A DNA stretch of 64,000 nt from contig JAAXHG010000015.1 of NCBI GenBank assembly GCA_012270995.1, positions 60,945 to 124,944 of the forward strand, written 5' to 3'. Below, one piece after another: positions 42,555-58,021 of this stretch (position 1 is its first letter; each line of letters begins with the position of its first letter). Position numbers and translations under genes: made by a program. The notes under the pieces were generated by a model. The model had not been told where the DNA came from. It saw nothing but the letters and a program-made list of their open reading frames with translations, and made no database searches. Origin of the DNA: Vicinamibacteraceae bacterium. GTDB lineage: Bacteria; Acidobacteriota; Thermoanaerobaculia; Multivoradales; Multivoraceae.

Positions 42555-43895
42555 ATGAGCTTCAGAACGCGTGGCCGGACCCTGGGTCTGGGTTCGGCCC
42601 TGGGACTCACGTTGCTGCTTGCGCTCTTCGGCGCCGCCCCGGCGGCGGCGCAGGAAGGAGTCGATAGCGGCGACACGGCATGGATGCTGACCGCCAGCGC
42701 CCTGGTGTTGCTGATGACGCCGGGACTGGCCTTCTTCTACGGCGGGCTGGTCCGTCGCAAGAACATCCTCTCGATCCTCATGCAGTGCTTCCTCTGCATG
42801 GGACTCATGACGGTGCTCTGGGTCGTCGTCGGCTTCAGCCTCGCCTTCGGCTCGGACGCCCTCGGCGGCGTGATCGGCGGCGGCGACTACTTCCTGCTCG
42901 CCGGCCTGAGCCACGACGCCTGGGACGGGACGGGCATTCCCGGACCGCTCTTCATGATCTTCCAGGGCATGTTCGCCATCATCACGCCCGCCCTGATGGT
43001 CGGAGCCTTCGCCGAACGGATGAAGTTCAGCGCCATCTGCCTGTTCATGGGCGCCTGGCTGCTGGTCGTCTACGCCCCGATCTGTCACTGGGTCTGGGGC
43101 GGTTCGGAGGGCTTCTTCGGCCTCGGCGGTGACGGTGCGCTCGATTTCGCGGGCGGTACGGTCGTTCACATCAACGCTGGCGTTTCGGCCCTGGTGGCGG
43201 CGATCGTGCTCGGCCGGCGGCGTGACTATCCCGAACATGCATCTCCGCCGCACAACCTCCCCTTCGCGGTGCTCGGCACGGGCCTCCTCTGGTTTGGATG
43301 GTTCGGCTTCAACGCCGGCAGCGCCGTGGCAGCCAACGGTTCGGCCTCCAACGCCTTCGTCGTCACCCAGGTCGCTACCGCGACGGCGGCGGCCACCTGG
43401 GGCCTGATCGACTGGTTCAAGGAGTCGAAGCCCACGCTTCTGGGGGTCATCACGGGCGCTGTCGCCGGGCTCGTCGCGATTACGCCGGCCTGCGGCTCGG
43501 TCAGCGCGATCGGCGCGCTCGGCGTCGGCGCCGGCGCTTCCGTCTTCGCCTACCTTGCGGTCACCTGGCTGAAGTCGAAGCTCGGCTACGACGACTCGCT
43601 GGACGTCTTCGGCGTCCACGGTGTCGCCGGCATGTGGGGCGCGGTTGCGGCCGGTCTCTGGGCCACGGACGTGGTGCCCGGCAACGACGCGAACGGCCTC
43701 TTCTACGGCAACGCCGGACAGGTTGCGATTCAGCTCAAGGCGGTCGCCTACACCATCGTCTGGGCGGCGGTCGTGTCCTTCATCCTGCTCAAGATCGTCG
43801 ACCTGATCGTCGGCCTGCGCGTCAGCGACGACGAAGAGCGGATCGGTCTCGACCTCACCGACCACCGCGAAAACGCCTACACCCTGGTCGACTAG
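42555..43895 (+). CDS. amtB: ammonium transporter AmtB
   Basis: A 446-residue Amt/Rh channel that conducts ammonia across the inner membrane. ATG 42555 follows TTGGAGGGAC; the track start at 42423 is read-through. A signal peptide (LTLLLALFGAAPAAAQ) precedes eleven helices, as in proteobacterial AmtB. The signature TPGLAFFYGGLVRRKNIL is present, the pore twin-histidines are in GGTVVHINAGVS and FGVHGVAGMWG, and a cytoplasmic C-tail (DLTDHRENAYTLVD) can bind PII. The PII gene follows after 18 nt, the classical amtB-glnK pairing in which PII blocks the channel when nitrogen is plentiful. Confidence 0.95.
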   Translation: MSFRTRGRTLGLGSALGLTLLLALFGAAPAAAQEGVDSGDTAWMLTASALVLLMTPGLAFFYGGLVRRKNILSILMQCFLCMGLMTVLWVVVGFSLAFGSDALGGVIGGGDYFLLAGLSHDAWDGTGIPGPLFMIFQGMFAIITPALMVGAFAERMKFSAICLFMGAWLLVVYAPICHWVWGGSEGFFGLGGDGALDFAGGTVVHINAGVSALVAAIVLGRRRDYPEHASPPHNLPFAVLGTGLLWFGWFGFNAGSAVAANGSASNAFVVTQVATATAAATWGLIDWFKESKPTLLGVITGAVAGLVAITPACGSVSAIGALGVGAGASVFAYLAVTWLKSKLGYDDSLDVFGVHGVAGMWGAVAAGLWATDVVPGNDANGLFYGNAGQVAIQLKAVAYTIVWAAVVSFILLKIVDLIVGLRVSDDEERIGLDLTDHRENAYTLVD

Positions 43896-43913: not shown

Positions 43914-44255
43914 ATGAAGTACATCGTGGCAATCGTTCAGCCCGACCGGATGCAGGAGGTTCTCGACCTCCTGGAACAGAAGGAGATTCATCTGCTGACG
44001 GTCTCCAACGTGATGGGGCGTGGCCGCCAGCGGGGGGTCTCCGAGGTCTACCGCGGTCACAAGGAGGCGGGCGCCCTGCTGCGCAAGCTGAAAATCGAAA
44101 TCGCGGTGAACGACGACTACGTCGACATCGTGATCGACGCGATCACGCAGGGCGCTCAGACCGGCCGGGTCGGCGACGGGAAGATCTTCATCCTGCCGCT
44201 CGAAGAGACGATCCGCATCCGAACCGGCGAGACGGGAAACGTCGCGATCGGGTGA
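43914..44255 (+). CDS. PII signal-transduction protein (GlnB/GlnK family), Tyr51 replaced
   Basis: A 113-residue PII protein. It aligns without gaps to E. coli GlnB over the first 60 residues: the T loop GRGRQRGVSEVYRGHKEAG keeps Tyr46 but has Glu at position 51 where GlnB has the uridylylated Tyr. The B and C loops (TGRVGDGKIFILPLEETIRIRTGE) that bind ATP and 2-oxoglutarate are intact. It should therefore sense ATP/ADP and 2-oxoglutarate but cannot be uridylylated at the usual residue. It follows amtB by 18 nt with AAGGAGGA as ribosome-binding site and is convergent to glnE. Confidence 0.95.
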   Translation: MKYIVAIVQPDRMQEVLDLLEQKEIHLLTVSNVMGRGRQRGVSEVYRGHKEAGALLRKLKIEIAVNDDYVDIVIDAITQGAQTGRVGDGKIFILPLEETIRIRTGETGNVAIG

Positions 44256-44345: not shown

Positions 44346-47300
44346 TCAGTTGACCTGGTCGTCGAAGAGGCGCTGAAGGGCCGCCATCCGCTCCGCGATC
44401 CGGTCCCAGGCGCCATCCTCGTCCGGCAGTTGGCCAAGGCTGTGCAGCCGGCGCGCAAGGAAGCGGAACTCCCTCGTATCCGCCGGGGGAATCACGAGGT
44501 CCTTGCTGTGCCCGCGGACGATCCGCAGGCAGTTGATCACGGCCCGCAACAGCCGGTAACCCTGCTCCACCTGTTCGAACTCGTCGGCCGACAGGTGGCC
44601 GCGCTCGTGGAGCGCGTGGACCGCGTCGAGGGTGTTCGTCTGGCGCACTTCCGGGTCGCCGGCGCCGGCCGCTATCTGCCGCACCTGGACGACGTACTCG
44701 GCGTCCAGAAGGCCGCCGGCGCTGAACTTCGCGTTCGTCGTGCCGCGGGCGACGAGTTCCGACCGCTGACGGTTCCTGAGATGCCGGATCCGCGCGACGT
44801 CGTGCGGACGTGGATCGAAAACGAACTCCTGGCGGTGCGCCTCGACGCGAGCGGCAAGATCCGGGTCGCCGGCCACGGTGCGTAACCGCACCAGCGCCTG
44901 ACGTTCGTACGGATCCGCCTCCCCGTCGACGCTGTAGTACGAGACAAAGCGCTGAAACGAGGCGGCAAGCGGCGACGACGCACCGCCCGGCCGCAGCCGC
45001 CAGTCGAGTTCGAAGATTCCGTCGCGCTTGGCCCGGATCAGCCGCGCCAGCCGCTGCGCCGCCCGCTCGTAGAACTCACCCGCCTGGGCCCGCCGGGACC
45101 GTTCGGCGTCCCAGACGAACATCAACTCGATGTCCGACGCGTACCCCAGATCGCGTCCGCCCCACTTGCCGAGCGCGCACAGGCACCAGACTCCAGGCTC
45201 CGCCCCGTCGCCGGCCGTCTCGCCGACGGCTTCGGTCGCCGCCCGCGCGAGTACGACATCGGAAAGCGTCGAGAGTTCTTCGCCGAAATCGCTGAAGCGC
45301 TCGATGCGTCGCGTCAGGTGCCGCATGTCGATACGCCCGATCTCATCGTCCTTGAATCGGTTGAGGGCCTCGTCCGGCGCCTCCTGTGCTTCCAGCGCGG
45401 CTTCGAGGCGTCGCTCGAGGTCCTTCCGTCCGGCACCCAGGTCGAGGTCAGCGATGCCTTCGAGCAACGGCATCAGGTTCTCGTGCTGGCGCCGCAGGAA
45501 CTCCTCCCAGAGATACGTGCCGGCCCCCAGTACGCGCGCCAGTTCGTCGAGTGACGACGCCAGGGCCTGCGTCGGATCAGCAACCTGCTTGCAGGCCGCG
45601 TCGATCAGCGCCCCGAACTGCCGCAGGGCGAGTTGCGGGTTCGGCGCCACCGCCAGCCGCCGCGCGAACTGCTTCATCAGCGTCACCGTGAGTCGGAGAT
45701 GGTCGACGCCGATGCGGTCCTCGATCTTCCCGCCGCTCCGCGTGGTGACGAACAGGCGGTCGCGGACCTCGCCTTCAACCGTGTCGAACTCCACCTTGTC
45801 GATCCAGTAGTCGCGGGTCGAGAGAACGTTGGCGAACTCGAACAGGAACATGAAGCTGTCAGGGCTTCGGATCTCGAGGATCGTGCAGTGCTCGTCGGAC
45901 TCGTTGTCGACCGAAATCGAAATGGGAGGCATGACCTGTTCCGCATCGACGCCCGGATCGGTCACGCGGGCGGCCTCGATCACGCGCAGCGTCAGTTCCT
46001 CGTTGGCGCGCTGCGCGTCACCCTCGGCCAGCATGCCCAGAAGCCGGCTCAGGTCCCGCTCGAAATCCCTCCACGAGAAGACGCGGGAAGCGTGGACCGG
46101 CGCCGGCTGGACGTCGGCGGAGTACACGATGCGCGTGGGGCCGGGAGTCGATGGCCGCGACTTCCGGTCCTTGCGGCGACGCTGGCGGCCGCGCCGGCCA
46201 AGCGTCCGCGACGAAGGACGCCGGCCGGCCCTCCCGGGCCGCCGGTAGAACTCCATGTCCCCCGTGTCCTGGTAGGTGTAGGAACTGCCGCTCAGGATCG
46301 ACTGACCGTAGGCCGCCAGCAGGCCGCAGATCTTGGCGAACTCTCCCTGGTAGTCGTTGGCGACCACCGTCACGCGGCGAGTCGGGCCGACGTGCCGCAC
46401 GTCGACCCTGCACAGGCGCTCGCCGTCGAGTTCGTGGATCAGCTCGACGTGGCGCGCCACCTCCTCCACCGGGTGAGCGAGGAAGTAGGCGCTCTCGAGG
46501 CGCCGGAAGTGCTCATCGATGAGTTCCGCCGGCAGGTCCGGACAGCGTTCCCGCACCTGGTGCTTGCGTTCCAGGAAGTCGATCGTGTCGTCGAAGAACT
46601 CGCCGAAGATGCGGCGCACCTCGGCCGCCGTCTCCTCGTAGCGTTCGGCCAGGTAGAGCGTGCCCACCGGCTGGCCCAGGGCGAAGGCGACCCGCCACTC
46701 GAACGTCGCCCACTGCCTGGGATCGCGCGGAAGCTGGCGTACCGGCAGATCGCGCTCCAACTGCAGCACGTGCTCGACGACCCGCAGGAAGATGTAGGCC
46801 TCGCGCAACCGGTCGTACTCTTCCGGCGTGATCACGCGGTGCGCCCGCAACCGGGACATGGCCCGCAGCGTGTTCGGCGAGCGCAGGCTCTTGTTGGAGG
46901 CGCCGTGGTAGAGCTGCAGCAACTGGACGATGAACTCGATGTCGCGGATGCTGCCGGCGCCGAGCTTCACGTTGCCGACTTCCGTGCCCTTGGAACGGAG
47001 CGACTTCTCGATCATCTGCTTCATCTCGAAGACTTCGCGCAGCAGGGTCTCGGGCGGTCGATCGGGGTCGAAAACGAAACGCCGCGTGCCATCGATCAGC
47101 GCCTTGGCCGCGGCCGCGTCGCCGCCGGCAAAGCGCGCCTTGATCAGCGCCTGGAACGTCCAGTTCATGCCGTAGCGCTCGTAGAAGCGGAGGTACTGCC
47201 CCACCGTCCGCACCAGGGGGCCCATCTTCCCCTCGGGGCGCAGGCGCATGTCCACGCGGAAGACGAAACCGTCGCCCGTGTTGTCGGAGATCAGGCGAAT

Positions 47301-47843
47301 GAACTGCGGCGCCTGCCGCTGCAACCGGTGCAGGGCCTCCTGGTCGACGTCGTCCGAGGCCACGAACAGGGCGTCGATGTCCGAGCTGTAGTTGACCTCC
47401 AGGCCGCCCCACTTGCCCATCGCGATCACCGCGAACGGTTCCTTGTCCAGGCCTGTCGCATCGAGCGCCCGCTGAACGCAGACATCCGCCACCTGGGAGA
47501 TCTTCTGTGTCGTCGCGGCGAAGTCGTCGAGGCCGCTGAAGTCGGCGACCGCGACCCGGATCAGTTCCCGGTAGCGCAGGACGCGGAGCCAGCGGCGAAT
47601 GTCCTCGTCCGGCGCCGGCCGGAGCGCCGCCATGCGCTCGCGCTGCTCGTCCACCGACTCCTGCTCGACGGGAAAGAGCCCTTCATCCGCTTCCGGGTGC
47701 GCGTCGAGCCAGCGAGCGTAGGCCGGCGCGTACTCGCGCAGGATGTCGCGCTGCGCGAGCGCGAGGGTCTGCCGCGGATCCTCGGCGTCCTCGATGTCCA
47801 TGGCCGCGAAGGCCTCGATCGCTTGCTCAAGGCGCGAGTTCAC
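44346..47843 (-). CDS. glnE: glutamine synthetase adenylyltransferase/deadenylylase with ACT-like insertion
   Basis: A 1165-residue GlnE, about 200 longer than usual. GTG 47843 follows GAGGAGGAG, so it is preferred over the track start. The N-terminal nucleotidyltransferase half has GKWGGLEVNYSSDIDALFV near residue 150; the C-terminal half has GKWGGRDLGYASDIELMFV near 900. Between them lies a GlnD-like linker (YFLAHPVEEVARHVELI) and two ACT-like segments, RRVTVVANDYQGEFAKICGL near 485-525 and CTILEIRSPDSFMFLFEFAN near 650-700, separated by an Arg-rich stretch. It should add and remove AMP on glutamine synthetase; the ACT segments could bind glutamine. It is convergent with the PII gene. Confidence 0.92.
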   Translation of the reverse strand: MNSRLEQAIEAFAAMDIEDAEDPRQTLALAQRDILREYAPAYARWLDAHPEADEGLFPVEQESVDEQRERMAALRPAPDEDIRRWLRVLRYRELIRVAVADFSGLDDFAATTQKISQVADVCVQRALDATGLDKEPFAVIAMGKWGGLEVNYSSDIDALFVASDDVDQEALHRLQRQAPQFIRLISDNTGDGFVFRVDMRLRPEGKMGPLVRTVGQYLRFYERYGMNWTFQALIKARFAGGDAAAAKALIDGTRRFVFDPDRPPETLLREVFEMKQMIEKSLRSKGTEVGNVKLGAGSIRDIEFIVQLLQLYHGASNKSLRSPNTLRAMSRLRAHRVITPEEYDRLREAYIFLRVVEHVLQLERDLPVRQLPRDPRQWATFEWRVAFALGQPVGTLYLAERYEETAAEVRRIFGEFFDDTIDFLERKHQVRERCPDLPAELIDEHFRRLESAYFLAHPVEEVARHVELIHELDGERLCRVDVRHVGPTRRVTVVANDYQGEFAKICGLLAAYGQSILSGSSYTYQDTGDMEFYRRPGRAGRRPSSRTLGRRGRQRRRKDRKSRPSTPGPTRIVYSADVQPAPVHASRVFSWRDFERDLSRLLGMLAEGDAQRANEELTLRVIEAARVTDPGVDAEQVMPPISISVDNESDEHCTILEIRSPDSFMFLFEFANVLSTRDYWIDKVEFDTVEGEVRDRLFVTTRSGGKIEDRIGVDHLRLTVTLMKQFARRLAVAPNPQLALRQFGALIDAACKQVADPTQALASSLDELARVLGAGTYLWEEFLRRQHENLMPLLEGIADLDLGAGRKDLERRLEAALEAQEAPDEALNRFKDDEIGRIDMRHLTRRIERFSDFGEELSTLSDVVLARAATEAVGETAGDGAEPGVWCLCALGKWGGRDLGYASDIELMFVWDAERSRRAQAGEFYERAAQRLARLIRAKRDGIFELDWRLRPGGASSPLAASFQRFVSYYSVDGEADPYERQALVRLRTVAGDPDLAARVEAHRQEFVFDPRPHDVARIRHLRNRQRSELVARGTTNAKFSAGGLLDAEYVVQVRQIAAGAGDPEVRQTNTLDAVHALHERGHLSADEFEQVEQGYRLLRAVINCLRIVRGHSKDLVIPPADTREFRFLARRLHSLGQLPDEDGAWDRIAERMAALQRLFDDQVN

Positions 47844-47921
47844 GGCAACTCCTCCTCGTCGCTGGCCCACCGACAGCGGCGGACGGCGGAGAGAGGATGC
47901 TAACGGACGGCTCGGGGCGCC

Positions 47922-50900
47922 TCAGCCGACCGCCCAGCCCGCCGACAGCACCTCGGCCTGCTCCAGCACGGTCCGGGTCGCCTGCTCCTGCTTGTCGGGC
48001 GGGTAACCGTGCTTGCGCAGGATGCGCTTGACCAGAACGCGCAACTGCGCCCGCACGTTCTCGCGCAACGTCCAGTCGATCGTGACGTTCCGGCGAACGG
48101 TCTCGACAAGCTCGCGAGCGATATCCCGCAACGTCTCGTCGCCGAGCACCTGCACCGCGCTGTCGTTCGTCTCCAGGGCGTCGTAGAAGGCGAGTTCGTC
48201 GTCCGAGAGACCGAGCTCCTCGCCGCGGCGCTCCGCCTCTCGCAGGTCTCGCGCCAGACCGATCAGCTCCTGGATGACCTGAGCCGCTTCAATGGCCCGG
48301 TTCTGGTAGCGGCGAAGCGTCCGAGCGAGCATCTCCGAGAAGGTCCGCGCCTGAACCACGTTCTTCTTCCGCTTCGCGGCGAGCTCGCCCTTGAGCAGCT
48401 TCTGCAGTAGCTCGACCGCGAGATTGCGCCGTTTCATGCCCTGCACCTCGGACAGGAACTCCTCGGACAGGATCGAGATGTCGGGCTTCTCGAGGCCGGC
48501 CGCCGCGAAGACGTCGACCACTCCCTCCGGCGCCACGGCGCGCGAGACGATCTGCCGCAGGGCGTGGTCGAGTTCTTCTTGCGGCCGCGCATCGGACGCC
48601 GCGCGCTTCGCCAGCACCGAGCGGACGGCCTGGAAGAACTCCACGTCGTCGCGAATGCGGATCGCCTCGTCGTGGGGAACGGCGAGCGCAAACGCCTGGG
48701 TTAGTTCACGCACGGATCGGAGGCAACGCTCCTTCCCATCCTCCTGCGCCAGGACGTGCTCCTGGGCCGCCGGCAGCAAGCCAAGACGCTGGGCCGGCGC
48801 GCCGCCCGTCCACGCCGACCAGTCGAAGCCGTGGAACAAGGCGCAGCACACCTCGTGCTTCTCCAGCATGGCCCGCACTGCTTCCGCTTGGTCAACCGCG
48901 GCGCGGCCCGTGCCGCCGCTCTCGGTGTAAGTGGCCAGCGCGCGCTTGAGCTCGTGCGCCAGACCCAGGTAGTCGACGACCAGTCCTCCCGGCTTGTCCC
49001 GAAACACGCGGTTGACCCGCGCGATGGCCTGCATCAACCCATGGCCGCGCATCGGCTTGTCGAGGTACATCGTGTGCAGGCTCGGCGCGTCGAAGCCGGT
49101 CAGCCACATGTCGCGCACCAGGACCATCCGCAGCGGGTCGGACGGATCGCGGAACCGATTCGCCAACGCCTCTCGCCTCGGCTTGTTGCGGATGTGCGGC
49201 TGCCAATCGACCGGGTCGGACGCCGCGCCGGTCATCACGACCTTGAGACAGCCCCGCTCGTCCTCCGCGTGCTCCCACTCGGGCCGCAGCCGCGACAGCG
49301 CCGCGTGAAGATCGATGCAGATGCGCCGGCTCATGCAGACCACCATCGCCTTGCCCTCCATCGCCTCCAGGCGGCTCTCGAAGTGCGACACGATGTCTTC
49401 CGCGATGAGAGCCAGGCGGTCCTTGGCGCCCACTACGGCTTCGAGTTGCGCCCACTTCGTCTTCAGCTTCTCCTTCCGCTCGACCTCTTCGCCCTCGGTG
49501 ACCTCCTCGAATCCCGCATCCACGGCGGGCAGTTCTTCGTCGTCGAGCACCAGCCTGGCGAGACGGCTCTCGTAGTAGATCGGCACCGTCGCCTCGTCCT
49601 CGACCGAGCGCCGGATGTCGTAGACGCTGATGTAGTCGCCGAACACGTTCCGCGTGTTCGCGTCTTCCAGTTCGATCGGCGTGCCGGTGAAGCCGATGAA
49701 GGACGCGTTCGGCAGGGCGTCCCGCATGTGGCGGGCGTAGCCCTTGATGAACTCGTACTGGCTCCGGTGAGCCTCATCCGCGATGACGACGATGTTGCGC
49801 CGCTGGGAGAGCAACGGGTGCCGGTCGCCCTTCTGCTCCGGGAAGAACTTCTGGATGGTCGTGAACACGACGCCGCCGGCATCGACGGCAAGCCTGGAGC
49901 GGAGGTCGGCGCGGCCTGCCGCCTGGACTGGCGGCTGTCCAAGCAGATCGCGGCACCGGGAGAACGTCGCGAAGAGCTGATCGTCGAGATCGTTCCGGTC
50001 GGTGAGAACGACGACCGTGGGGTTCTCCATCGCCGGTTCGTGGACGATCCGGCCGGCGTAGAACGCCATCGTCAGGCTCTTGCCCGAACCCTGCGTGTGC
50101 CAGACGACACCGATCCGCCGGTCGCCGGGGTCCCCTCCCGGCACGCTGCCGGATGCGTAGCGCCCTCCCCCTTCCCGCAGGATCGAAGCGCCACTCCGAG
50201 GACGCCCGAGCGCCGCCGCGCGCAGCGTCTCCCTCACCGCGACCCGGACGGCATGGAACTGGTGGTAGCCCGCCATCTTCTTGACGAGCGCACCGCTGCC
50301 ATCGTCCTCCACGACCAGGAAGTCGCGCACGAGGGCCAGGAAGCGGCGCGGCTCGAACACGCCCTCGACGGCCACCTCCAACGCCGCCTGCCCGGCGGGT
50401 GCCAGTTCTTCGCCGCCGATCGTCCGCCACGGCTTGAACCACTCCCACCCGGCCGTGAGCGTGCCCAGCCTCGCCTCGACTCCATCCGACACGGCGAGCA
50501 CGGCATTGAACTCGAAGAGCGACGGGATCTCCGCCTTGTAGGTCTGAAGCTGCCGCCAGGCGCTGTACACCGTGGCGTCCTCGTCGGCCGGGTTCTTCAA
50601 CTCGACGACAGCGAGCGGCAGACCGTTCAAGAAGAGCACGATGTCCGGCCGGCGCTCGCGGCCGTCCTCCACCACCGTGAACTGGTTGACGGCAAGCCAG
50701 TCGTTGTTCGACGGCTCGCGGAAGTCGATCGGCCGCGCCTGGGCGCCCCGCACGCGGCCGGCGCCGTCCCGATACTCGACCGTGACGCCGCCGGTGCACA
50801 TCCGGTGAAGGGCCCGGTTCCGGGACTCCAGAGTCGAACCTTGCGGCCGCATGAGCCGCCGCGCCGCGTCTTCGAGCGCCGCGGCGGGCAGGTCCGCGTT

Positions 50901-51074
50901 GAGCCGCGCCAGCGCCTCGCGCAGCCGTCGCTCCAGCACCGCCGCGCCGTAGTGCCCGCGTTCCGCCGCTCGCCCTCCCGGGCCGATGTCCGGTCCGTGG
51001 GCGATCTCCCAGCCAAGGCCCTCCAGCCAGTCGAGGGCGGCGGCTTCGACTTCGGATTCGGTGACGCGAGTCAC
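47922..51074 (-). CDS. hsdR: type I restriction enzyme R subunit
   Basis: A 1050-residue motor-nuclease subunit. GTG 51074 overlaps the stop of the DUF4276 gene as GTGA; the track's start at 51341 runs into that gene. The N-terminal nuclease shows [21 protein letters not shown] (PD-ExK). The helicase has [18 protein letters not shown] near residue 330, [13 protein letters not shown] near 430, and [20 protein letters not shown]. The C-terminal helical domain ([21 protein letters not shown]) binds HsdM/S. It cuts DNA after translocation when sites are unmodified. It is the last gene of the composite operon. Confidence 0.94.
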
Positions 51075-51688
51075 GGGACGGACACTTCGCGAATCACGTC
51101 CAGGAAGACTCCGAAGCTGTGCGATCGATTCCGCTCGGGAACGAGGTGAGCCGCAATCGCGCGGGCTGCCTCTCTCTTGCGGACACCCGTGCTGAAGTAC
51201 CCATGCCGCTTCAGGATCCGCTCGAACACCTCCCAAGTCCGGGGAATGCCGTCGGGATTGCGATAGGGGCTCTGTTTCGGCGTGGCGGCCGACAGACGCG
51301 GATACGCGCCGCGGACCGCCTGCCAGTCGCCGAAGAACCACGCCTCAAGTTCCTGTACGACGACACGATTCACCAACTGCCAGGGTTCCCCGGACGCCAT
51401 GCTCCGGGTACGCAAGCCCGCGCGGGACGCCGCCGCCTCCAACTCCGCCTTGAGCGCGAGGCAATCGTCCTCGTCGCGATCCACCATGACCACGATGCGC
51501 CAGTCGGCCGGCAGCCACTTCGAGTAACCGCGCAGCCGCTCATCGAGCTTCGAGCGCAGGTCTGGTTTGCCGCGAAAGGAGTGGATGGCGAACGTGCGGT
51601 CGCGCGGCAGCAGTCGAGGCAAAAGCTCTCGAAGGAACTCCTCCATTGACGGTTCTTCGACCAGGAACTCCAGGTGGCGAACCGTCAT
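51071..51688 (-). CDS. DUF4276 (TOPRIM-like) protein paired with AAA ATPase
   Basis: A 205-residue protein. An N-terminal glutamate motif ([17 protein letters not shown]) and a downstream DxD cluster ([15 protein letters not shown]) match the TOPRIM-like pattern of DUF4276. The conserved [11 protein letters not shown] and [10 protein letters not shown] follow. Such proteins are commonly the second gene after an AAA ATPase, as here, and resemble nuclease partners in OLD- or PARIS-type defence. It overlaps the ATPase gene upstream (ATGA) and hsdR downstream (GTGA). A nuclease role is inference. Confidence 0.82.
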
Positions 51689-52935
51689 CGCCTGCTCTTC
51701 CGCTCAGCCTCCAGCGGCGCCCCTTCGTTCACGAGCGGGTCGCCCGCTCCCAAGTGCCCTTCCATCCAGAGATCGCCGAGTTTGGCGCCCTCCTCGACGA
51801 ACTCGTTGACGCCCCTCGTCCTGGAGACCAGACGAGCTTGGGTGTAGCCGGCCTCGTCCCGCCACAGGACGCGCACTTCCCTGGGCCTCAGGGCCTCCAG
51901 GAAGAACGGCGAGTGAGTCGTTATCAGCAACTGCGTGCGACCCGAGGCCGCGCGACACTCCTCCGCGAGTTCCGGGAGCAGGCGCGGATGGAGAAAGTTC
52001 TCCGGCTCCTCGACGCCGATCAGCTTGGGAGGCGCCGGGTCATGGAGAAGAGTCAGATAGGCCAGCATCTTCAGAGTGCCGTCCGAGGCGAACCGCGAAA
52101 GCACCGGCGTCGAGAACGGCGCGTCCTTGACCCTGAGCAGAAGCCGACCGTCGGCGAGGCTCTCCGCGTGCACCTTCTCGATGCGTGGAACCCGGCGGCG
52201 GAGAGTCTCGAAGATCCTCTCCAGCCGTTCGGGATGCTGCTCCCGCAGGTGCTGGATCACGTTGGCCAGATTGTCGCCCGTAGGCGAAAGCTGCTCCTCC
52301 CCGCCCGCCTCCGGGTTGCCCCTCGCCGCGTCCGCCGAGAGATACGAGAGATGCCAACTCGTGACGAACTCCCGCAGGGCGATCACCCGCGGATTCTCGG
52401 CGAGCATGCCGAGAGTGCTGACGGCCAGAACGTCCGGACCGGCGAGACTTCGAGGCACCCGCTCATCGTCACGCTCGGGCGCCTCACCGGTGATCACGAC
52501 GCCGTCTCCAAGCCTGTACTCCATGAAGTTGAACGGACGGCCCGCCCGGCCGCTTCGAGTCCAGCGGAGCCACTCGTGCGTGACGACCGGACGCCCGGCT
52601 TGCTCGTCGATCTCCAGGTGATAGGCGATCAGCGGCGACCTCGGCCGCTCCCGGTACTTCAGCTCGATGACGACCGGCCCTTCGCTGTCGCGGCTGCGCA
52701 ACTCCCGGAATCGCCCCCGCCGGTCCCAGGCCTTGCGGACGCCGCCGGTGAAGCACTCCGACAGGAAGGCGAACACGTCGAACACGGTCGACTTGCCGCT
52801 TCCGTTCGGCCCCAGCAGCACCGTCAGCGGCGTCAACTCCGACATCGTCACGTCGCGAAGAGCGCGGAAGTTCCTGACCTTCAGCCAGGTCACGCGGGGT
52901 GGTACGCGCTCTCTCATCTGCTTCCCCTCCGACAC
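51685..52935 (-). CDS. AAA family ATPase (AAA_21/OLD-like)
   Basis: A 416-residue SMC/ABC-type ATPase. It begins with [15 protein letters not shown], then Walker [20 protein letters not shown] near residue 45. Later come the signature-like [16 protein letters not shown], Walker [19 protein letters not shown] and [16 protein letters not shown]. These are the hallmarks of overcoming-lysogenisation-defect-like ATPases that pair with a TOPRIM partner. Alternative ATG 52917 is possible. It is 16 nt after hsdS and overlaps the DUF4276 gene by 4 nt, so it is an integral part of this R-M operon. Confidence 0.87.
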
Positions 52936-52951
52936 CGGCTCTCGTCAACCG

Positions 52952-54631
52952 TCACGACTTCGCTCCCGCGGATGCCTGGACGCTACCAACAGCGCTTCGG
53001 CATGGCTCGAACGACGCCGGAGACTCGCGCAGCCGGATCTCGCCGGAGACGAGCTTGGGGAGGAGCGTGTCGCGAGTGGAAGCGAGGACCCGAGCCTCCC
53101 GCTGGTTCTCGTGTAGTTGGCTCAACAGCGGCGCCGTCAACTCGGAAAACGCCGCCCGAGTACGCGCCTCCGGCAGCACCACGGCAGTGCCCAGGACGGT
53201 TGTCGGATTCACGGCCGGGTACGCCCCGCCGTCCGCCAAGCGAGCGAGGCGGGCGATATTGCCGTGGGAAGTCGCGGCGCAGTACACGATTTCTCGCCCG
53301 ATGGCGGCCTTGGGGCGCAACACCGCGAATCCCGTGCTTCCCGTCAGACCATCGCGGTCAACGAGCGCGAACGACCCGTTTCCGGGCCGCACCGTGCCCA
53401 CGATCGTGTCGCCCGGCCGCAACACCCGACGCGCCCTGCTCGGCGCCGACCCCCACGCGTGCGGCTGGACGGACTCAATAACTCCCCACTTCGTGTTCGC
53501 CAGATCAACGTAGCGAACTCCGTCCGGAGTGTTCTTCCGGCCCCACGACTCCGGATTGAGCTCTGCAACGTCGGCCAGTGTTCCAGCCCGCCAGCCCTCC
53601 GGAGTCTCGCCCATTTCGGAGTCCACCAGCCGGTCGGAGAACAGGCCGGCTACGTCTTCCGGCAATCCAGTGTCCCGGCCTTCCATCTTCGCGCGGACCG
53701 GATCGAAGTCGACGAACCAGGACTTGAACAGCGCCCGGGCCATCGCCTCCAGCGTCTCGTTCATGCGCCGGTTCAGCTCGATCTTGTCGTCCAGGGCGCC
53801 GAGGATGTGGGCGATGGCGCGCTGTTCGTCCATGGGAGGAAGTGGAATCGGGATCGTCTTCACGTAGCTCGCCGGCTGTGCGATCGAGGGAACGCCGACC
53901 TGCGAGGTGTTTGCGAGGAGCGCATGCCTTCCTTCCGCGGAAGCGAACCACAGCGCCGTGAACTCGGGGAGCATCCTCGACTCGTCACACCTGAGGTACA
54001 TCTGGCTTTGCGACACGACATAGCGCTCGTACTGAGCGTCGCGGGGGATCATGGAGACTTGGCCGATCGTGCCGCGATGGGTAAACACGATGTCTCCGGG
54101 TCCGACATTCGCGTTCGCAAGTCGGTCCGCGTGTTCCTCGCAGATGAAGTCGAAGCCAACGCCTTCGTCCAATCGCCGACCGTGCAGGTGCTTCCCGTTG
54201 ATCACGGGCACGCCCTGAGGCACATAGGTCTCCACCTTGATCGAAGAACCGAACGGCCCCATCGCCACCTTCTCGGCAATCTCCTCAACCCGGACCCGAG
54301 GCCAGTCGCCGCGACTCGGCTTCGCCAGGAGAACGACGTACTGTCCCTCAATCTCCCGATGAAACCGCTCCGGCAGCCGCGCCCAGTCGCGCGCCTCCAC
54401 CAGGAACGGGATCGTCGAATCGTGCAGCGCCTGCTGGAAGTCGGCGAGCCGCGTCAGGTCGATCTCGGCCAGTCCGGGCCCCCGGAGCACGAGGTCCAGG
54501 TCGCTGCCGTCGTGGCTGCGGCCATCGACGCGGCTGCCGTAGGCCCAGACCTCGACCTCGGGCAGGTGCTTGCAAAGCAGCGCTTCGAGCTGCTCTCGGT
54601 GGCGAGGGGAAAGCTGCAGACGTTCAGTCAC
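52952..54631 (-). CDS. hsdS: HsdS specificity subunit fused to an N-terminal minimal nucleotidyltransferase
   Basis: A 559-residue fusion starting at GTG 54631. Residues 1-105 are a minimal nucleotidyltransferase (MNT): VWAYGSRVDGRSHDGSDLDLVLRG gives GS-x10-DxD with GS at 32-33 and DxD at 44-46. From about residue 107 the protein is HsdS: VRVEEIAEKVAMGPFGSSIK begins recognition domain 1, IPIPLPPMDEQRAIAHILGA the first conserved helix, PEGWRAGTLADVAELNPESW domain 2, and the last helix ends TRDTLLPKLVSGEIRL. HsdS sets the DNA target. MNT domains of MntA AMPylate or nucleotidylate a HepT partner; an HI0074/HepT-like gene overlaps upstream by 8 nt. Confidence 0.9.
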   Translation of the reverse strand: MTERLQLSPRHREQLEALLCKHLPEVEVWAYGSRVDGRSHDGSDLDLVLRGPGLAEIDLTRLADFQQALHDSTIPFLVEARDWARLPERFHREIEGQYVVLLAKPSRGDWPRVRVEEIAEKVAMGPFGSSIKVETYVPQGVPVINGKHLHGRRLDEGVGFDFICEEHADRLANANVGPGDIVFTHRGTIGQVSMIPRDAQYERYVVSQSQMYLRCDESRMLPEFTALWFASAEGRHALLANTSQVGVPSIAQPASYVKTIPIPLPPMDEQRAIAHILGALDDKIELNRRMNETLEAMARALFKSWFVDFDPVRAKMEGRDTGLPEDVAGLFSDRLVDSEMGETPEGWRAGTLADVAELNPESWGRKNTPDGVRYVDLANTKWGVIESVQPHAWGSAPSRARRVLRPGDTIVGTVRPGNGSFALVDRDGLTGSTGFAVLRPKAAIGREIVYCAATSHGNIARLARLADGGAYPAVNPTTVLGTAVVLPEARTRAAFSELTAPLLSQLHENQREARVLASTRDTLLPKLVSGEIRLRESPASFEPCRSAVGSVQASAGAKS

Positions 54632-55067
54632 GGGGCGCGTCGTCGATCGTATCGGCGAGCGCGCTCGCGTCGTCGAGAAAGGCGCGAAGGAGGTCGACCG
54701 CCGTCGCGTCGAACGGGCCGTCGTCTTCCCGGTCGACGAGACCGTCCACGGCGCCCCGGTAGCCGAGCCATCGCTCCGTCGCCTCGACGTCGATCAGGCC
54801 GTGCTTCGCCGCGTGCCGGAAGACGTCCCGGAAGGTGAGGCGGTCCGCCTGACGATTGCTCGCGAACCACGGCCGCAGGCGCTTCTTGAGGAGTTTGCCG
54901 CTCTGTTCGAGGGCCACCTCGAAGTACTCGGCGCCTACCTCTCCGGCGAGGCGGCCCGCAGTCGCGTCCTCGGCGTCGTCGAGAGCGTCGAGGCAGACGC
55001 CCAGCCGGTCGAGCCGGCTTCTGAGGAACGTCGTGTCGATGTCCTTCGTCAGTGCCGGCATGGCCAC
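54624..55067 (-). CDS. HI0074/HepT-like nucleotidyltransferase-partner protein
   Basis: A 147-residue all-helical protein. The stretch EVALEQSGKLLKKRLRPWFA, LTFRDVFRHAAKHGLIDVEA and ERWLGYRG matches nucleotidyltransferase substrate-binding proteins (HI0074 family). In HepT toxins the next segment carries an R-x4-6-H-x-Y RNase motif; here it reads RGAVDGLVDREDDGPFDA, with no His-x-Tyr. It may thus be a structural or regulatory partner, not an active toxin. It overlaps the MNT-HsdS gene by 8 nt, the usual order for MNT/HepT pairs. Confidence 0.78.
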   Translation of the reverse strand: MAMPALTKDIDTTFLRSRLDRLGVCLDALDDAEDATAGRLAGEVGAEYFEVALEQSGKLLKKRLRPWFASNRQADRLTFRDVFRHAAKHGLIDVEATERWLGYRGAVDGLVDREDDGPFDATAVDLLRAFLDDASALADTIDDAPRD

Positions 55068-55135
55068 GCCCGCCGTCCACTGAGTGACCCCCAGCCGTAC
55101 CGTCCCCGCATGCTACAGGCCCCGCCGCGACGACT

Positions 55136-55915
55136 TCACGCGGCCAGCAGAAGCCGCTCGAATCGCTCGGGAGAGGACCAGAGAGTGACTTCGGACTGCT
55201 GCTCGACAAGCTGGAAGTCCTCCCTGCGCCAAACATCCTGCGTGTCGTCGAACAAGGAAACCAGCGTCAGCTTCTGCCGGCTCTCCCGCAAGTGGCTGAG
55301 ATCGACGCATCCGGCGACGACATGCTCGGTGATCCGCCGAGCGGCGCCACGGGAACCCGTACTGAGCAGGAAGACGAGCGCGGTTCGCTCGTCCGTGTGG
55401 GTCTCAAAGTCGACGGTCCATTGCCGACCCGACCTGCCGGTACGGCTCACAGCGCGCTCATGGGCAATGCGCCGCTCCGTCAGCCATTCATGAACCTCGT
55501 CGGAGGCACTCTGGGCGGCCCTGGTTCTCAGAGTGAACCAAAGGTCCGAGACTCGCACCGCAGCCTGTGCTACTCGTAGCACGGAGTCCCCTACTGCAGC
55601 GTCTGTCGCGACCCGCAGAACCAGTTGACCGCGTTCCAGTTCGAGGCCAAGTGTCTGGCACACGTCCCCGATCATCCTGTTCTGTTTAGGCGATCTGCGT
55701 TTACTCACGGACTGCATTCGCAGCCAACCGAGGCTCTCGCCGAAGTCGGTGATGGTCAAGCCACCGTTGCGCTGGAGGACGAACACGTCGACCACGCCGC
55801 CGTCGGGGTACATGAGCGGAGTCCGCACCCTTACGCCTTCTTCAGGAGCAGGGGAACAACTGAAGAGCGGCGGCAGGGACGTTGCGATCGACGAACAGAG
55901 CGTCTCGAAGTTCAT
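55136..55915 (-). CDS. DUF1828/DUF1829-type protein
   Basis: A 259-residue protein started at ATG 55915, which overlaps the previous stop as ATGA. The N-terminal part RVRTPLMYPDGGVVDVFVLQ then GGLTITDFGESLGWL matches DUF1828. The C-terminal part includes VDFETHTDERTALVFLLSTG and a final FERLLLA. Members are found near restriction and mobile genes and may be nucleases or DNA-associated factors, function unproven. It is followed by a 68-nt gap before the HepT-like gene. Confidence 0.75.
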   Translation of the reverse strand: MNFETLCSSIATSLPPLFSCSPAPEEGVRVRTPLMYPDGGVVDVFVLQRNGGLTITDFGESLGWLRMQSVSKRRSPKQNRMIGDVCQTLGLELERGQLVLRVATDAAVGDSVLRVAQAAVRVSDLWFTLRTRAAQSASDEVHEWLTERRIAHERAVSRTGRSGRQWTVDFETHTDERTALVFLLSTGSRGAARRITEHVVAGCVDLSHLRESRQKLTLVSLFDDTQDVWRREDFQLVEQQSEVTLWSSPERFERLLLAA

Positions 55916-56366
55916 AGAACCAGTTCCTTCTGGGCGTTCAAGGCACCCACACTTCCATCGTGAACGATCCCGGCCTCGGTGCAGAACTGGTCCCAGACTT
56001 GTCTCGGTTGATTCCAAGGAGCGGTGATGTCCCCGGGAACGTATGCCTGCTTGTCGCGACAGGCCTCCGTCCACCGATGCTTGTGCTTCTCGCCAACGAA
56101 GTTGCAATCCGGGTTGTGGTGATCGGCACCCAGGTCGAGCCCATAGATGCGACCGACCTCCCGATGAACGATCGTGTAGGACAGAGTGCCAGCCTTGGGG
56201 TTGCAACGGCCGTTGACGAAGAGCGGATAGCCGGCATCGGACAACACCTCGGCCCTGAACTCCCGCGCGGGAGAGTGATCCTCATCGTCCTGCCACTCTA
56301 CGTCGCCGACGATTCGCTTCGTTCATCAGCCAGGATCGCGTCGAACTCCTGCTGGCTGAGCGTCAC
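55912..56366 (-). pseudogene. frameshifted small gene of the R-M operon (DUF6978-like)
   Basis: GTG 56366 overlaps the hsdM stop as GTGA and opens [14 protein letters not shown]. The frame then ends at a TAG, but the -1 frame continues RIVGDVEWQDDEDHSPAREF and on through VLSDAGYPLFVNGRCNPKAG to NAQKELVL. One missing base near 56315-56325 would rejoin the frames. The pattern VGRIYGLDLGADHHNPDCN and HKHRWTEA recalls DUF6978-type proteins, tentatively. It is either inactivated or hit by a sequencing error; no slippery heptamer is seen. Confidence 0.6.
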
Positions 56367-57979
56367 GGTGTGCTGCTCCTATTCGTCGGCGTCATCCCGA
56401 ACCCCAGCGCCCGCAGGTTTTCCTCGATCGCCGCGTCCAGTCTCCTTGCCTGGGCCTGCCGGTCGCGCCACTCGCCGGCGAGGCGCGTCATCTTGTCCTC
56501 GAAGGGTTCGCCGTCGTCCTCCGGCGGCTTGAAGCCGACGTAGCGGCCCGGGGTGAGCACGTGGTCGTGCCCGCGGACTTCCTCCAGGGCGGCGCTCTTG
56601 CAGAAGCCGGGCTCGTCTTCGTAGGGCGCCGCACCCTCGCCGCCGCGCCAGGCGCGGTACGTCGCGGCGATCCGTCCGATGTCTTCGGCGGCGAGTTCGC
56701 GGTGCGTGCGGTCGACCATGCGGCCGAGTTCGCGGGCGTCGATGAACAGGATCTCACGGCCGTGAGCGTGACCGCTGCCGCCGCCGCCGTCCTCCCGGTC
56801 GCGGGCAAGAAACCACAGGCAGGCCGGTATCTGGGTGGAGTAGAAGAGCTGGCCGGGAAGAGCGACCATGCAGTCGACGAGGTTCGCCTCCACCAGGTTG
56901 GCGCGGATCTTCCCCTCGCCCGACTGGGCCGACGACATGGAACCGTTCGCGAGCACGAAGCCGGCCCTGCCTTCCGGGGCCAGGTGATGCACCATGTGCT
57001 GCACCCAGGCGAAGTTCGCGTTGCGCCTTGGCGGCACGCCGTACTTCCAGCGCTTGTCCTTCGCCAGCCGCTCGCCTCCCCAGTCCGAAACGTTGAAGGG
57101 GGGATTGGCCAGGATGTAGTCGGCCCGCAGATCCGGATGGCGGTTGTTGTGGAACGTGTCGCCCTGCTCGATCCGCCCGCTGATGCCGCGGATGGCTAAG
57201 TTCATCCGCGCCAGCCTCCAGGTCGTGTAGTTCGACTCCTGGCCGTAGATCGAGAGATCGGCCGCGGTACTCGCGGTCCGTGCGCTGTTGCCGTTGCCCG
57301 TCGCGTGAGCGCCGATGAACTCGACGGACTGCACGAACATGCCGGACGACCCGCAGCACGGGTCGTACACGCGGCCCCTGTACGGCTCCAGCATCTCCAC
57401 CAGCAGCTCGACGACGCAGCGAGGCGTGTAGAACTCCCCGCCCTTCTTGCCCTCGGCGCTCGCGAACCGGGACAGGAAGTACTCGTACACGCGGCCAAGA
57501 ACATCCCTGGAACGCGCATCCTCATCGCCCACCTGGATGTTGCTCACCATGTCGACGAGCTGCCCCAAACGCTCCTTGTCGAGCGCCGGGCGCGCGTAGT
57601 CCTTCGGCAGCACGTCCTTGAGCGACCGGTTGTCGCGCTCGATGGCAACCATCGCGTCGTCCACGAGCCGGCCAATCGAAGGCTGCCGGGCCGCCTTCTT
57701 CAGGCGCGTCCATCGCGCCTCGGGTGGCACCCAGAAGACGTTCTTGGCCCGGTACTCGTCGGGATCCTCTGGATCGGCGCCGTCGTCGCGCTCCGCCTCG
57801 AGGCTGGTTCGGGTCTCCTCAAACGCGTCCGAGATGTACTTGAGGAAGATCAAGCCGAGTACGACGTGCTTGTACTCCGCCGCGTCCATGCTGCCGCGCA
57901 GCGCGTCGGCCATCTTCCAGAGTTCGGCTTCGTAGCCGGTAACGGCGCCGGAAGCCAAGGCGGCCCCTTCTCTTGGCAT
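56363..57979 (-). CDS. hsdM: type I restriction-modification DNA methyltransferase subunit
   Basis: A 538-residue N6-adenine methyltransferase subunit. ATG 57979 follows GGAGGAC; the track start at 58009 is 10 codons earlier. The N-terminal HsdM domain reads [24 protein letters not shown]-binding [14 protein letters not shown] and catalytic [12 protein letters not shown] near residue 292 are intact. [17 protein letters not shown] is also conserved. It methylates the site chosen by HsdS and opens the operon, coupled to the next gene through GTGA. Confidence 0.95.
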
Positions 57980-58021
57980 CGATGCTTGTCCTCCGTCTCC
58001 CTGCATCAATCTCCGAACGCA

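Follow-up and report, generated by a model that had tools for sequence, protein, structure and literature searches.

ACT-GlnE, an acidobacterial GlnE carrying a GlnD-type ACT module that may sense glutamine

Gene layout of the glnE locus

The window analysed here, a stretch of 64,000 nucleotides from a member of the Acidobacteriota, contains a glnE gene with an unusually long segment between its two catalytic halves (Table 1); we call its product ACT-GlnE. The open reading frame (44346-47870, (-)) specifies 1174 amino acids. The GTG at 47843 is taken as the conserved start because similarity to relatives begins there, in agreement with the start chosen in an earlier, sequence-only reading of this DNA. 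Pfam analysis revealed two GlnE domains (PF03710), both with a GlnD_UR_UTase helical domain behind them, all above the cut-off, and both halves are matched by the E. coli ATase structures 1v4a and 3k7d. Residues 4-431 and 737-1174 share 28% identity in a self-alignment, which is the usual duplication of GlnE. By analogy with E. coli, the N-terminal half is probably the deadenylylase side and the C-terminal half the adenylyltransferase side. The acidic residues of the nucleotidyltransferase motif G..GG...YSSD.D are present in both, as D-I-D in the N-terminal half and, with a conservative change, as D-I-E in the C-terminal half, where the second acidic residue is an invariant Glu across the ACT-GlnE clade. 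The best score against the NCBIfam GlnE equivalog model (NF010707), 397 bits, misses its cut-off of 625 bits; this is the mark of a divergent subfamily falling below a naming threshold and reflects no structural feature. Judged by its domains and motifs, the protein is a GlnE-type bifunctional ATase, predicted to adenylylate and deadenylylate glutamine synthetase.

The amtB-PII pair adjoins and converges on glnE in 14 of the 15 relatives fetched, the remaining record (L013) ending just past glnE. Directly upstream of glnE (47922-58009, (-)) lies a defence island of the type I restriction-modification kind; HsdR was found beside glnE in only one fetched relative (L015).

Table 1. Features of the glnE locus, in window coordinates
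Feature	Position	Strand	Remarks
AmtB ammonium transporter	42555..43895	(+)	upstream of PII gene
PII (GlnK/GlnB)	43914..44255	(+)	only PII found in genome; T-loop EVYRGHKEAG, no Tyr51
glnE CDS with insert	44346..47843	(-)	1165 aa from GTG at 47843; ORF open upstream to 47870
C-terminal GlnE half	44346..45662	(-)	Pfam, self-alignment; YASDIELMF, D913/E915/D956
Inserted GlnD-type module	45663..46580	(-)	residues 431-736; GlnD models, hhalign, alignment
ACT2	45666..45932	(-)	residues about 647-735; SPDSFMFLFEF, without the loop glycine seen in GlnD ACT2
Rest of ACT1, beta3 and helix after it	46026..46136	(-)	residues about 579-615; model, alignment
Arg-rich variable loop	46137..46265	(-)	residues about 536-578; expands ACT1 beta2-beta3 hairpin; absent from GlnD
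ACT1 beta1-alpha1-beta2	46266..46382	(-)	residues about 497-535, VTVVANDYQGEFAKICGLLAAYGQSILSGSSYTYQD; predicted element order, alignment; loop glycine kept
GlnD-like linker before ACT1	46401..46532	(-)	residues about 447-490, EHF..L...Y......V..H..L...L; NF003467 positions 676-780
N-terminal GlnE half	46581..47813	(-)	Pfam, 1v4a match; YSSDIDALF, D164, D166, D207 intact
HsdR; HsdS; HsdM	47922; 52952; 56363	(-)	type I restriction-modification genes
HEC-01-like AAA ATPase/partner pair	51071-52935	(-)	embedded between Hsd genes
PDC-M24B-like gene	within 47922-58009	(-)	embedded between Hsd genes

Identity of the inserted module

The halves of ACT-GlnE are separated by 306 residues, compared with 31-93 in 23 ordinary GlnE proteins of Acidobacteriota. 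The sequence-only reading had put the protein about 200 residues above the typical length. It is indeed longer, but that figure has to be replaced: the insert alone accounts for 306 residues, and the total of 1174 amino acids, against 902-1121 in ordinary Acidobacteriota GlnE, is only about 50-270 in excess, which is less than the insert because the N-terminal half is shorter.

When the insert was scanned by itself in nine sequences (that of the window and eight relatives), all nine matched GlnD models, and only models of the GlnD family rose above noise (best E-value=6e-15 for the sequence of the window, in two separate stretches). Alignment with hhalign to a profile of the last 300 residues in ten Acidobacteriota GlnD proteins gave 98.5% (E-value=3e-15, 107 bits), rising to 99.3% (E-value=2.5e-20) with three divergent relatives added. 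As controls, the N-terminal part of GlnD scored 19 bits, 40 column shuffles gave 20 bits or less, and ordinary GlnE linkers reached 0.15% against the GlnD C-terminal profile. The alignment is colinear through the segment between HD and ACT1, ACT1, the inter-ACT helix and ACT2, at about 20-25% identity. Pfam ACT models gave no match to the insert, so the ACT assignment is drawn from GlnD homology together with the predicted ACT topology. At the level of sequence homology, the insert is confirmed as the C-terminal module of GlnD (linker, ACT1 and ACT2) lying inside GlnE; the GlnD-like linker and two ACT-like segments that had been read from the letters are borne out by colinearity, hhalign and the GlnD models alike.

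AlphaFold, supplied with nine similar sequences, predicted the insert at a mean pLDDT of 54, with elements in the order beta-alpha-beta-(loop)-beta, then beta-alpha-beta-beta. ACT2 with the helices that follow it was modelled at pLDDT 64 and pTM 0.56, as beta-beta-alpha-beta-beta-alpha. The best Foldseek matches of the ACT2 model are plant ACT-like domains (probability 1.00, E-value=2e-3), and the large glutamate dehydrogenase ranks high as well. An ACT fold of ACT2 is thus supported by a model of modest confidence (pLDDT 64). Over the insert as a whole (pLDDT 54-64), the ferredoxin-like fold expected by the sequence-only reading is probable for ACT2, whose best match is ACT-like, and putative for ACT1. 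A sequence search for a solved GlnD ACT structure found none. An origin from ACT domains of the glutamate dehydrogenase type, raised by the weak fold matches to the large enzyme, was rejected, as the sequence models match only GlnD and no Pfam glutamate dehydrogenase ACT model matches the insert.

The loop that expands the ACT1 hairpin is an Arg-rich insertion of 30-50 residues, present also in distant relatives belonging to family f6 of the same class. We considered an artefact or frameshift as its source and rejected this, because 15 further records have the same unbroken frame and ACT1 aligns to GlnD on both sides of the loop. In the genus of the window, the glycine of the beta1-alpha1 loop is kept in ACT1 (NDYQGEF); in ACT2 it is replaced in every aligned member (DSFMF, against D..G[LF] in GlnD and f6). 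The f6 relatives keep both loop glycines (D[YF]PGEL and DT[AV]GF).

Pairwise dN/dS values between the window GlnE and eight relatives, calculated by segment, were 0.02-0.10 for ACT2, 0.04-0.25 for the ACT1 core, 0.07-0.16 for the catalytic halves and 0.20-0.54 for the Arg-rich loop. Both ACT cores are under purifying selection, as strongly kept as the enzyme, and only the Arg-rich loop in ACT1 drifts.

Distribution and origin of the fusion

The close relatives (83-95% identity) come from metagenome-assembled Acidobacteriota genomes with Thermoanaerobaculia or Holophagales labels, one of them Candidatus Multivorans. The distribution given here refers to the phylum Acidobacteriota, which was surveyed by single-protein searches. 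In the window's genus (g1) the fused GlnE is present in each of the 21 genomes sampled, including one that is a single contig (G184), and it occurs also in three genera of f6 (G354, G371 and G377). The f6 inserts are 32-33% identical to that of the window over their whole length, and one alignment gave 37% identity over nearly the whole protein. The remaining genomes sampled from the class, as far as listed, showed neither a GlnE nor the insert; elsewhere in the sampled Acidobacteriota, GlnE is of the ordinary form. The insert had no relatives in viral contigs, and plasmids yielded only ordinary GlnE, plus GlnD matching ACT2.

In a tree of both halves with the insert columns removed, the g1 proteins and the three f6 sequences formed one clade (100/100) inside Acidobacteriota GlnE, so that a single fusion event is likely. 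They were not grouped in a tree of the N-terminal half alone, where support was weak. The simplest reading of these sequences, and a likely one, is one fusion followed by loss or transfer.

The search for GlnD also raised two frames of about 1000 amino acids in family f15 (L065 and L066, in genomes G082 and G223), which proved unrelated to the insert. They show weak similarity to the GlnD nucleotidyltransferase (TIGR01693 positions 28-292) and no GlnE match, and possibly represent an undescribed family of large nucleotidyltransferases.

Components of the nitrogen circuit

A search of the window's genome with GlnD models revealed no GlnD gene; the only matches, all weak, were to this GlnE and to a CCA/poly(A)-polymerase-like protein, in its HD domain. 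Nor was GlnD found in the other genus members tested, the single-contig genome included. The PII gene next door had been described as encoding a non-uridylylatable protein, and the product indeed has no Tyr at position 51; the same T-loop type occurs in every genus member read. The genus has one GlnE and a single glutamine synthetase of type I, whose loop reads DIYDLSPEE. With no GlnD and a single PII lacking Tyr51, the classical PII-UMP relay cannot work in this genus, which holds neither the Tyr51 PII nor the uridylylating GlnD that define the classical GlnD-PII-GlnE cascade. Such a loop would allow adenylylation but is not diagnostic of it, since the closest solved structure, 3ng0, carries the same motif. 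This is a cyanobacterial enzyme, and adenylylation of glutamine synthetase is not known from cyanobacteria.

The three f6 genomes differ in this respect. G377 has no GlnD, and its three PII proteins among those listed all lack Tyr51. G371 contains a catalytically intact GlnD alongside ACT-GlnE and is the genome in which a Tyr51 PII was seen; replacement therefore cannot be the whole reason for which the module evolved. ACT-GlnE is thus found together with the classical cascade in one lineage and stands alone in two. G354 carries a full-length GlnD homolog (L104:2471-5386, (-)) in which both catalytic sites are changed, with SSVGL for SD[IV]D[LV] in the nucleotidyltransferase and LLHVIGK for LLHDIGK in the HD domain, and both ACT domains are kept. 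Its motifs suggest that it may be a sensor-only pseudoenzyme beside ACT-GlnE.

Two further genera of the window's family (G152 and G306) possess a PII with the T-loop QVYRSHKEAGSLLRK, again without Tyr51, and have no GlnE, no GlnE insert and no GlnD. Since these GlnE-less genera share the non-Tyr51 PII, the fusion did not bring about the change in PII, and a tie between the two, which we had considered, is weakened.

Proposed function of ACT-GlnE

In bacteria, control of glutamine synthetase is a two-cycle cascade, GlnD-PII-GlnE. ACT-GlnE appears to unite in one polypeptide the sensor of the first cycle and the effector of the second, in organisms that have lost the remainder of the first cycle. 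In the enterobacterial ATase, glutamine and unmodified PII favour adenylylation, and deadenylylation needs PII-UMP (PMC6316151). GlnD is considered to sense glutamine with its ACT domains (PMC3173338). Without GlnD and without Tyr51 there is no PII-UMP, so something else must release the deadenylylation half, and the inserted module would be the obvious candidate. From the sequences, direct sensing of glutamine by ACT-GlnE is the most likely reading, and we think it likely. The fuller proposal, that the GlnD sensor module, inserted once between the halves, reads glutamine directly and also sets the catalytic balance, we hold to be an even call. The ACT pair would bind an effector (most likely glutamine), and the presence or absence of this ligand would set the balance between the two flanking halves: at high glutamine, glutamine synthetase would be adenylylated and so inactivated, and at low glutamine deadenylylated. 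The non-uridylylatable PII would contribute at most a 2-oxoglutarate/ATP/ADP input and control of AmtB, and the ACT module would take over the on/off signal carried by PII-UMP in E. coli.

The loss of the ACT2 glycine leaves at most one canonical site in the window's genus, and combined with the large ACT1 hairpin insertion it means that the ligand site may be remodelled or dead. Perhaps ACT1 is the working site in this genus, ACT2 has become its structural partner, and the fused module stands in for the entire uridylyltransferase/PII-UMP cycle, with glutamine sensing, adenylylation and deadenylylation united in one protein; we put this forward tentatively, as somewhat short of an even call.

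The main rival is that the module is no ligand sensor and acts structurally or through protein-protein contacts (orienting the halves, dimerisation, or docking of PII or glutamine synthetase), glutamine being read by the C-terminal half as in the E. coli ATase. The replaced ACT2 glycine in all genus members aligned and the Arg-rich loop invading the ACT1 hairpin would suit such a role, and ACT2 is the most conserved segment despite its changed ligand loop, as expected of a packing surface. However, f6 keeps both glycines and the window's genus that of ACT1, and with GlnD absent, no further glutamine sensor acting ahead of GlnE is known; we regard this rival as possible but unlikely.

That the module senses another amino acid or several in combination (glutamate, alanine or branched-chain), giving feedback from a different nitrogen pool, seems improbable. 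ACT domains do have diverse ligands (PMC3173338), and both pockets differ from those of GlnD in the window's genus; yet the closest homolog is the GlnD sensor module, no other ACT family scores beyond noise, and glutamine synthetase is the substrate of the host enzyme. Far more doubtful still is a merged GlnE/GlnD that also nucleotidylates PII in place of the uridylyltransferase. Such a protein is suggested by the presence of the GlnD regulatory tail where GlnD itself is absent, but it has no HD (uridylyl-removing) domain, both its nucleotidyltransferase halves are of the GlnE type and match the E. coli ATase structures, and the target Tyr51 is missing from PII. An assembly or binning artefact joining two genes, to be considered with metagenome-assembled genomes, is refuted: 15 independent records from other genomes read through in the same frame, and the fusion occurs in the single-contig genome and in a second family.

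Comparison with known systems

ACT-GlnE resembles the ATase of 1v4a and 3k7d in its two tandem nucleotidyltransferase and helical halves and its catalytic motifs, and it falls within Acidobacteriota GlnE on the tree; it differs from ordinary GlnE in the 306-residue linker-ACT-ACT module between the halves and in its shorter N-terminus. The module shares colinear linker-ACT1-ACT2 homology with GlnD, but it sits inside GlnE instead of behind an HD domain, has the 30-50 residue loop in the ACT1 hairpin and, in the window's genus, has lost the ACT2 glycine. The GlnD architecture, with nucleotidyltransferase, HD and ACT-ACT in one protein, is not present, the HD domain being missing.

We found no paper in the open-access literature that mentions GlnE together with an ACT domain. 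Direct activation by glutamine is an old property of the ordinary enterobacterial ATase (PMC6316151), so that the novelty would lie not in a GlnE which senses glutamine itself, as the sequence-only reading had suggested, but in one that does so through a GlnD ACT module. If direct sensing through the module is correct, ACT-GlnE would be a natural one-protein version of the cascade. As a candidate ligand-gated adenylyltransferase, it would serve the study of nitrogen control in symbionts for which metagenomes are the main source of knowledge. It also allows the function of the GlnD ACT domains to be tested apart from the uridylyltransferase.

The plant ACR proteins (ACR11 and others) are free ACT repeats resembling GlnD that are linked to glutamine synthetase and proposed to be glutamine sensors (PMC3173338). 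Like ACT-GlnE, they have a GlnD-type ACT pair detached from the uridylyltransferase, but they are free-standing, whereas the pair of ACT-GlnE is fused to the catalytic modifier of glutamine synthetase. Free-standing frames also occur in Acidobacteriota: those of 266-304 amino acids in G066, G148, G099, G172 and G008 match only the linker-ACT-ACT module of GlnD. The donor in fusions of this kind may have been a relative of these GlnD-type ACT repeat proteins.
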